Below, one piece after another: positions 8,501 to 53,451 of a stretch of DNA of 64,000 bases. The stretch comes from Planctomycetota bacterium (lineage in GTDB: Bacteria > Planctomycetota > Planctomycetia > Planctomycetales > Planctomycetaceae): the NCBI GenBank assembly GCA_003388505.1, contig QQVO01000004.1, positions 124,001 through 188,000 on the forward strand. The letters run 5' to 3'. The notes below the pieces were generated by a model. It did no database searches and was not told the origin of the DNA. It saw nothing but the letters and a program-made list of their open reading frames with translations. Each line of letters begins with the position of its first letter. Position 1 is the first letter of the stretch. The position numbers were made by a program, and so were the translations under genes.

Positions 8501-9469
8501 TCACCGGGGCGAATCGGCTGCCGGCTCTTGACGACGGCCGAGCATATTCACGCCGCTGCCGATCAGCAGATTGTGCTCGTAGGCCCAGAGATACACGCGG
8601 CCCTGTTTTTCCGGCGGGAGAACGACGAGATTCTCGAAGCCTGCTGCCTCAAACCATGTGGTCAATTCGCCCACCGTGTGATGGTGCTGGTAGGCAGGGG
8701 CGTACCAGTCGAACGTATCGCAGACGCGATTCTCGTAACTGGGGTGGGCGCTGAAGTTGAAGATTTTGTTCAGTGTGCGGTTGATGACGGGAACGCCGCC
8801 GAGTCGCGCGCCCCAGCGGCACCAGCGTTCGAGTCGCTCGGGCCGCATTCGGACCGTGCGCCGACGCAACGCCGTGTTCAGAAGCTCCTGCCACCATTGG
8901 TTTCTGCGGTAAAGCCACACGGCCAGCCGTCCTCCGGGCCGCACCATTTTCGCAACCGCATCGAAGACCTGCCTCGTATCAGCGTCATGGTGCATCACGC
9001 CGATCGAAAACACAAAGTCGAACGACTCCGGTTGCAGCGGCAATCGTTTCAGATCGGCCTGAATGAAATGTGCGTTCGGCAAGCCCTCGCACAGCGCAGC
9101 GGCTTTCTCGACGGCCCGGGTATGGTCAACGCCGATGACCTCGGCGCCCGCTGCGGCGGCGATCCGGCTGTAGCGCCCTCCCCCGCATCCGGCATCCAGC
9201 ACGCGAAGTCCCGCGAGTTCTTCCAACCGGACTCCGGTCTTCGCCTGGAACGTGGCCCGGTCTTCCTCGTCGTGGGCGACGTCGTACCGATTCCACTGTA
9301 GGCCGAACGTCTCCAGATGCTCATCCACAACGAATCGTGGAATCCCATCTCGGATGGGGATCAGTTCCGCGCCGCCCGGGAGGAACAGGGACGCTTTTTC
9401 CGCATCCCACTCCAGCTTTGCTCCGCTCGCGGGGCATCGGAGTTGAGCGATAAACTCTTGACTCGTCAA
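8501..9469 (-). CDS. Class I SAM-dependent methyltransferase with Trm112-like head
   Basis: About 322 residues from a TTG at 9469; the open frame continues to GTG codons at 9499 and 9556. Those 30 extra residues lie inside a copy of dispersed repeat A, so I prefer the TTG, after which a Trm112-like segment (AQLRCPASGAKL...IPIRDGIPRF) begins at once. The methyltransferase fold follows: motif I LRVLDAGCGGGRYS, VIGVDHT, ADLKRLPLQPESFDFVFSIG and MHHDADT. The C-terminal part (WYAPAYQHHHTVGEL, WFEAAGFENLVVLPPE) is typical of methyltransferases acting on small molecules or glycolipids. The substrate is unknown. Confidence 0.8.
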   Translation of the reverse strand: MTSQEFIAQLRCPASGAKLEWDAEKASLFLPGGAELIPIRDGIPRFVVDEHLETFGLQWNRYDVAHDEEDRATFQAKTGVRLEELAGLRVLDAGCGGGRYSRIAAAAGAEVIGVDHTRAVEKAAALCEGLPNAHFIQADLKRLPLQPESFDFVFSIGVMHHDADTRQVFDAVAKMVRPGGRLAVWLYRRNQWWQELLNTALRRRTVRMRPERLERWCRWGARLGGVPVINRTLNKIFNFSAHPSYENRVCDTFDWYAPAYQHHHTVGELTTWFEAAGFENLVVLPPEKQGRVYLWAYEHNLLIGSGVNMLGRRQEPAADSPR

Positions 9470-9573
9470 TTCAATCTTTTCGGGTTGGGCGGCGCTCACG
9501 GACGCACAAATTCCGCCGGGTTTCGTGCGGCTTTGCGGTCCAGCCAACCGGAACACAAGCCCCTGACAGGGCG
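9464..9573 (+). repeat. Dispersed repeat family A, copy 1
   Basis: A copy of the roughly 110-bp family defined by the copies at 27008 and 47807. It starts CGTCAATTC, carries the TTTCGTGCGG hairpin arm and GCGGTCCAGCCAACC, and ends CCCTGACAGGGC. The left hairpin arm is eroded (GCACAAATT instead of GCACGAATC). It overlaps the 5' end of the leftward methyltransferase frame. Confidence 0.8.
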
Positions 9574-11063: not shown

Positions 11064-11075
11064 TACGTCACACGA

Positions 11076-11100
11076 CTGCCCTGTCAGGGCTATAATTTCG
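11076..11100. repeat. Terminal fragment of repeat family A
   Basis: The stretch CTGCCCTGTCAGGGC and the following bases match the outer end of repeat A as seen at 47805. They lie in the 43-bp gap between the ECF sigma and anti-sigma genes. Only the palindromic end is present, so this is a remnant or chance similarity to the palindrome. Confidence 0.45.
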
Positions 11101-11106
11101 AGTCTC

Positions 11107-25966: not shown

Positions 25967-26146
25967 CGCCTCAACACGCCTCTCAATTCTCGCCAAGCGC
26001 TTCTGGTCGTCGGTCTCTCGTGGCGGCGCTTATGTTACTGATGGCGCCTGGCCGCGTCGACTCGGCGTGACAATTCCACGTCGCGGCGCTATAACGCCCT
26101 CAGCAGAACGCGCCTGCGACGACGCAGTCAGCCCTGACGAATCGTC

Positions 26147-26223
26147 CGTCGATTCGAAGTTTTCCAGGTTGAGCGGCTCTTGCGGAAGCACGAATCCCGT
26201 GGGCTTTCGTGCGGATGTGAAGC
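26147..26223 (+). repeat. Dispersed repeat family A, partial copy
   Basis: The left two-thirds of repeat A: CGTCGATTC start, GGTTGAGCGG, then the hairpin AGCACGAATCCCG/GGCTTTCGTGC. The right end with the CCCTGACAGGGC palindrome is missing. It lies just upstream of the membrane protein gene at 26271 and may carry or interrupt its leader. Confidence 0.7.
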
Positions 26224-26270
26224 CGACCAACTCGTCAACGCAACCCTCACAGAGCACCGGAAGATCCCCC

Positions 26271-26837: not shown

Positions 26838-27007
26838 GTGTAATTTCAGTGAGTAGTTGCGTGTGATTGTGCGCGATCTGTCCGCGTTGGCATGCGTTCT
26901 GCAATCCAGAGCGCCCGAATGGAAACAGGGAAAACTTTCTTGTAAAAATTCGATCGTATGCGAACTTTTTCTTAAACCGAACGTCTAATGGTGCGTACTA
27001 CTGAGTA

Positions 27008-27117
27008 CGTCAATGCATGGTTTTCGGGTTGAGCGGATCTCGCCCAGGCACGAATCCCGCAGGGTTTCGTGCGGATTCGCGGTCCAGCCAACCCGGGAAC
27101 AGAGCCCTGACAGGGCA
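27008..27117 (+). repeat. Dispersed repeat family A, copy 2 (well conserved)
   Basis: Best forward copy of family A. It shows CGTCAAT at the left end, the central hairpin GCACGAATCCC / GGGTTTCGTGC, the block GGATTCGCGGTCCAGCCAA, and the right-end palindrome GCCCTGACAGGGC. Its core is nearly identical to the inverted copy at 47807-47916. It lies 134 bp upstream of the sigma factor start. Confidence 0.85.
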
Positions 27118-27251
27118 CTACTCAGTCCATTGAGGGGTGGCAGGGAGAGAATCGTCTTCCCGAGGGGGAATGGCGGCGAGTCACCCCGTGGTTCACTGCG
27201 AGACTTGCTCACACGACGCTGTGCAACTCCAGGCGAACGCAGGAGTCCCGC

Positions 27252-47806: not shown

Positions 47807-47916
47807 TGCCCTGTCAGGGCGATATTTTCGGGTTGGCTGAACCGCGAATCCGCACGAAACCCTGCGGGATTCGTGCTTCCGGGCGAGCCGCTCTCTGCGA
47901 AAAGTTGCGATTGACG
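47807..47916 (-). repeat. Dispersed repeat family A, copy 3 (inverted, well conserved)
   Basis: Inverted copy. It starts GCCCTGTCAGGGC, then the block TTGGCTGAACCGCGAATCCG, the hairpin GCACGAAACCC / GGGATTCGTGC, and ends ATTGACG. Its reverse complement matches 27008-27117 nearly base for base over the central 45 bases. Confidence 0.85.
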
Positions 47917-48117
47917 AACCACGACGACATTGCGCCCCTGTCTCCCGGCAGGTTCGCCCTTTTCGTGCCCCTCGTCACCGGAGATGCGTCGGCCGGAGTC
48001 GGCGCCGCGTCACACGATGACTTGTGTCACGCAGACATGGTTCAGCAGGCGTCGATCCCTCTTTGACCGCCCTCGGCAGTTCCGATCGATCTTCCTGCCT
48101 ATTCGATACACTAGGTC

Positions 48118-53329: not shown

Positions 53330-53439
53330 TGCCCTGTCAGGGCTGTTTATGCGGGTGGGCCAGACTGCAGAACCGCACGAAACCATGCGGGATTCGTGCT
53401 CCCGTGAGAACCCCTCAAGCCCAAGAATCTGAATTGACG
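53330..53439 (-). repeat. Dispersed repeat family A, copy 4 (inverted)
   Basis: Inverted copy: GCCCTGTCAGGGC, GGGTGGGCCAGACTGCAG, the hairpin GCACGAAACCATGCGGGATTCGTGC read in two arms, and the terminal GAATTGACG. It lies between the TIGR03009 stop and the GTG start of the MobA-like gene, which begins 13 bp later. Confidence 0.82.
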
Positions 53440-53451
53440 GACCACTAGATT

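Follow-up and report, generated by a model that had tools for sequence, protein, structure and literature searches.

The window (the whole 64-kb stretch of DNA that was analysed) contains five full-length copies of a short palindromic repeat and one doubtful remnant. The query copy, placed by the alignment of 57 copies and checked against the sequence, lies on the plus strand at 27002–27117 (116 bp) and is flanked by a perfect 4 bp duplication, CTAC at 26998–27001 and CTAC again at 27118–27121. A 25 bp palindrome (GCACGAATCCCGCAGGGTTTCGTGC, 27048–27072, plus strand) forms its fold-back centre, and a hairpin (GCCCTGACAGGGC, 27104–27116, plus strand) its right end. The other copies are at 9459–9573 (plus strand, flanks CTCT/CTCG), 47807–47921 (minus strand, flanks GTCG/GCAG), 53330–53444 (minus strand, subfamily B, flanks CTAG/CTAT) and 26142–26256 (plus strand, flanks CGAA/CCGG). 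A minus-strand match at 11075–11103 (GCCCTGACAGGGCA; a score of 13.5 bits and E = 0.022 over 850 kb) is a candidate remnant and, from its sequence, plausible as the right end of the element. Elsewhere in the window, positions 809–906 match the bacterial small SRP RNA (RF00169, 53 bits).

The original prediction described four full copies with common ends and a common hairpin, and a check of the sequence confirms both their positions and these features. The sharp ends that it reported also stand, but its length of 110 bp is too short, as the element extends 5–6 bases further to the left (TGGTY) and one further to the right (A). The match that it took for a partial copy at 26147–26223 proves, by profile and alignment, to be the diverged but full-length copy at 26142–26256, and its terminal remnant at 11076–11100 survives only as the plausible right-end remnant described above.

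When the copies are aligned with their flanks the consensus is about 115 bp long, running from TGGTYCGTCAATT to GCCCTGACAGGGCA, and reads TGGTYCGTCAATT...TTTTCGGGTTG...GCACGAATCCCGCAGGGTTTCGTGC...CAACCCGAAAACAAAGCCCTGACAGGGCA between two CTAG flanks. Among the 57 aligned copies the ends are abrupt and the flanks unrelated. The terminal inverted repeats are TGGTYCGTCA and TGCCCTGTCA, and the element folds back end to end as an imperfect palindrome with the 25 bp hairpin at its centre. Single copies mostly fold in this shape (z of about -2.7 to -6.1 for copies from the element's own genome), and they do so on both strands. The signal of compensatory pairing is weak (paired cells 80.2% versus 79.3% in shuffles) and small inside the central palindrome, with paired changes seen at the subfamily level in the arms (for example TTCCTGGGGTTG/CAACCCCAGGAA in L026); the RNAalifold consensus is poor, with 11 pairs. 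The stable fold would also suit a family of riboswitches or of non-coding RNA genes dispersed in the genome, but folding on both strands, covariation barely above shuffles, the absence of any Rfam match, target duplications and copies in both orientations relative to genes make an RNA family highly improbable. A tRNA-like cloverleaf was dropped because most copies fold as a single fold-back.

Copy number and genomic placement

A profile search (E < 1e-3) of an 850.5-kb sample of the element's own genome (G000) recovered 39 copies, and the reversed sequence gave no match at that threshold, the best control having E = 2.6. Extrapolated from this sample to the 6.78 Mb of the 78-contig assembly, the estimate is about 310 copies (Poisson range about 220–425), or roughly 0.5% of the genome; the hundreds of copies that were predicted from the window are thus borne out. 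An independent genome-wide search with a right-end pattern gave 57 hits, and a control pattern none.

The element is also non-coding, as predicted, with 37 of the 39 copies (about 95%) intergenic or at a gene edge, according to a simple in-house gene caller that assigns 84–86% of the sequence as coding. Neighbouring genes are tandem, divergent and convergent in 23, 12 and 3 cases, which roughly tracks the intergenic length available (62, 47 and 21 kb), and within tandem pairs nine copies have the same orientation as the genes and 14 the opposite. No clear bias in gene orientation or toward convergent or divergent neighbours is therefore seen in the 39-copy sample, and a role as a terminator was rejected for lack of a convergent bias.

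We note that several copies (C1:63752, C7:86815, C7:164822 and C7:113272) have a member of a second repeat family (GCCAGTGGCACCCGTCAA-like) in their flanks. At C7:132930–133280 (L099) the left and right ends of the element enclose unrelated sequence at a distance of about 215 bp from each other, representing either an interrupted copy or a longer relative.

Target duplications and a candidate IS630-type partner

The element is flanked by a 4 bp target duplication centred on NTAN (CTAG, CTAC, GTAG and others), which the original prediction had proposed to look for and which emerged on aligning the ends. Among the 57 copies the four flanking bases match exactly in 13, compared with 2.0 by permutation (maximum 8 in 5000 permutations), and at least three of the four match in 31, with 14.6 expected; these counts are slightly conservative since the anchor is off by a base in at least one copy, that at 27002, whose flanks are CTAC/CTAC. 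The inner two bases are mostly TA in all copies and so carry little information on the duplication. The outer bases are informative, with base -1/+4 matching in 36 copies (18.4 expected, p = 5e-5) and base -4/+1 in 42 (34 expected, p = 5e-4), and neighbouring control positions are flat. Relatives in other genera have the duplications CGAG/CGAG, CTAC/CTAC (three) and ATAG/ATAG, as well as CTAG/CTAG, and near-identical relatives in the genome G250 are every one flanked by CTAG or CTAC. Because the outer bases correlate and other genera show 4 bp pairs other than CTAG, the duplication is 4 bp in length, and the outer-base correlation rules out a duplication of TA only for this repeat. Base counts in the flanks show the preference for NTAN, and CTAG in particular. 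No empty site was found, either among repeat-in-repeat insertions in the same genome or at one sister-family locus, which lacked synteny.

The original prediction had also proposed to look for a linked transposase, and the probable partner is an IS630-type insertion sequence that is known in the same genome from partial copies, with further ones at contig ends; no intact cognate transposase is present in the 78-contig assembly. A fragment on contig C17 (L034:1374–2119) matches NF033545 with E = 4.7e-14; being partial, it scores 52.5 bits and falls short of the 100-bit cut-off. It sits between two CTAG sequences with the ends TGGTCTGTCACAGCTTGATTTTGGGG and TGGTCTGGTCCAGATGGATTTTGGGG, one of which reads as CTAG followed directly by TGGTCTGTCA, and the end of another IS630-type copy in this genome is flanked by CGAG. 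The ends of the repeat match the terminal inverted repeats of these insertion sequences, TGSYYYGTCA adjoining CTAG, and only 3–21 of 20000 random 31-mers, a set that includes some copies of the repeat itself, score equally well. Two other IS630-type copies, on C73 and C9, were rejected as an end match since their ends differ (AGAGCGCT...).

A related transposase (L194/L199) is encoded by two ORFs. Of 170 genomes from the same family, 45 contain its subgroup. Where the ends can be placed, the IS630-type elements are about 1210–1270 bp long with TG[CG]...GTCA-like ends and mostly CTAG on both sides. Three copies in G236 are flanked by CTAC/CTAC, compatible with a 4 bp duplication by IS630-type elements themselves; an exception is L246, flanked by GTAG/CTAC, which TA-only duplication fits better. 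The near-identical IS630-type copies L187, L193 and L196 of G236 are each inserted precisely where a REP-like palindrome, GTCATGC/GCATGAC, ends in CTAC, so that REPs act as their insertion targets. Ten near-identical 1232 bp IS630-type copies in G322 (L229–L238), nine with CTAG on both sides, are a recent amplification.

From its sequence the repeat is probably (at about 0.85) a non-autonomous MITE mobilised by an IS630-type transposase. It is shorter than 300 bp, non-coding and multi-copy, with terminal inverted repeats, a target duplication and ends in common with an insertion sequence. In a plausible scenario, two ends of an IS630-type element would have been joined around a short palindromic centre, and a two-ORF transposase would recognise the TGSYYYGTCA ends together with a subterminal block around TTTTGGGG, excise the MITE and integrate it at NTAN, with a preference for CTAG, so that 4 bp are duplicated. 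Mobility and a cut-and-paste mode of movement are what we infer from these features. According to Tenzen and Ohtsubo (1991; cited in PMC2170065), IS630 favours a TA that lies in CTAG, and the MITE has both the ends and the CTAG preference in common with the IS630 family and ISY100, although it lacks a transposase. A point against the assignment is that IS630 and ISY100, like published IS630/Tc1/mariner elements generally, duplicate TA only (PMC2170065), whereas the MITE duplication is 4 bp.

The 4 bp length would be accounted for if the same MITE were moved by another DDE transposase and its likeness to IS630 ends were convergent. A 4 bp duplication at YTAR-like targets is usual for elements of the IS5 and IS701 types. 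We regard such a mover as unlikely, as the DDE_Tnp_1 (PF01609) loci of the genome, the IS5/IS4 candidates covered by the search, lack matching ends, as IS630-type elements across the family have matching ends next to CTAG, and as the CTAC/CTAC copies in G236 fit a 4 bp duplication by IS630-type elements. If the 4 bp duplication is a property of the IS630-type transposase, it is an exception to the TA-only duplication reported for the IS630/Tc1/mariner superfamily. Searches of open-access literature found neither a 4 bp duplication by IS630 elements nor a planctomycete MITE; a 4 bp IS630 subgroup may already be catalogued in IS databases.

The closest precedent is RUP, a 107 bp repeat with 108 intergenic copies whose ends match IS630-Spn1 of the IS630 family (PMC2229807), but which is unrelated in sequence, has targets containing a TA dinucleotide rather than 4 bp NTAN, and is set apart by the conserved central palindrome of the MITE. 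ERIC/IRU elements are likewise intergenic with short inverted ends, a target duplication and base-paired stem-loop transcripts, in 30–711 copies depending on the species, but have TA termini, an unrelated sequence and no partner transposase reported in review (PMC2229807, PMC10969869). Correia/NEMIS elements (about 107/155 bp) also have inverted ends and terminal TA, and an internal segment that is present or absent and so resembles the variable centre of the MITE (PMC2229807); they differ in their 24 bp inverted repeats and unrelated sequence. The MITE is an ordinary kind of element, of which the 4 bp duplication and swappable hairpin centre are unusual for IS630, and it is a clear example, in Planctomycetes, of a MITE family in high copy number whose partner is probably of the IS630 type.

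Uneven conservation and exchangeable centres

Between the closest independent copies, 7.1% of sites differ in the centre and 6.0% in the right hairpin, compared with 16.8% in the arms and 16.3% at the left end (Fisher p = 6e-11, treating sites as independent), such that the rate of change in these two parts is 2–3 times lower than elsewhere in the element, and copies from unbiased stretches show the same direction. A count of singletons per site gave no sign of fewer private mutations in the centre, but this count is insensitive at high divergence and is superseded by the pair-based test. Conservation of the left end does not exceed that of the arms, which counts against mobilisation by a transposase, since a transposase should need this end.

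The constraint on the centre could reflect either mobility along master lineages or use by the host. Under the latter, host selection for dimeric protein binding or transcript processing would keep the centre and right hairpin, in keeping with the substitution differences above, with a symmetric change in the centre of the relative in G283 (GCCCGAA...TTCGGGC) and with the occurrence of the same centre in a Pirellulales MAG amid otherwise different surroundings. We consider host use rather improbable, given the little pairing-preserving signal in the centre, the lack of clear orientation or neighbour bias relative to genes, the finding that the centre never occurs without the MITE ends in 850 kb of its own genome, and its complete replacement in other genera; constraint along mobile master lineages would also yield an identical pattern. 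We tentatively favour the centre being an internal mobility determinant of the MITE.

A DNA search of 20 relatives gave no match, and relatives were detected by profile alone. The model R1, built on the 11-pair consensus and detecting mainly by sequence, found them in 18 of 297 genomes of the class, most strongly in G283 and G203, though its E-values are rough and some weak relatives, such as ones in coding sequence, may be chance. Relatives in other genera have the ends in common, often with CTAG flanks, but different central palindromes, some REP-like. The GCACGAA...TTCGTGC centre is found in G000, in G203, as the variant in G283, and on the MAG contigs JAFGIR010000157 and JANQPT010000014, the last probably the same genome as G203. 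Centres are of the type GGAGCGACAACGGAGCGG in G083, G289 and G224, ACGGACTTCCAGTCCGT pairs in G168 and G250, and GTAG-tagged hairpins in G227 and G185.

It is possible, although we hold this tentatively, that a family-wide planctomycete IS630-type lineage duplicates 4 bp at NTAN and gives rise to MITE shells that swap centres, REP hairpins included, with the centre selected independently of end recognition. An exchangeable centre offers a test of recombination between REP hairpins and MITEs. At L097:19378–19650 (C7:99378–99650) a MITE centre is interrupted by about 150 bp with two REP/BIME-like hairpins, CGCACGC/GCGTGCG, as a GTAG...CTAC pair. This hints at how one centre might be replaced by another.

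The original prediction offered a MITE or a REP element as examples of a mobilised unit, and the IS630-type inverted repeats and 4 bp duplication settle the choice in favour of the former and against the latter. GTAG/CGTC REPs (PMC3733652) are palindromic like the MITE, and GTAG hairpins form the centres of some sister elements, but these REPs are 20–40 bp long and lack the MITE shell. That the repeat itself belongs to the GTAG or CGTC superfamily of REP/BIME elements and is moved by a RAYT might be argued from its palindromic form, its hundreds of intergenic copies, the CGTC near one end and ten Y1_Tnp matches in the genome. REP/RAYT elements, however they move, are not known to generate target duplications like the 4 bp seen here. 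Moreover, the element is about 115 bp with inverted ends rather than a 20–40 bp tagged hairpin, its CGTC lies inside the left end apart from the main stem rather than as an unpaired tag at the end of a palindrome, and REP-like units insert on their own, as at L097, so that we give a RAYT-mobilised REP almost no weight. Three strong Y1_Tnp (PF01797) transposase genes in this genome (L250–L252) are possible RAYTs for REP-like repeats.
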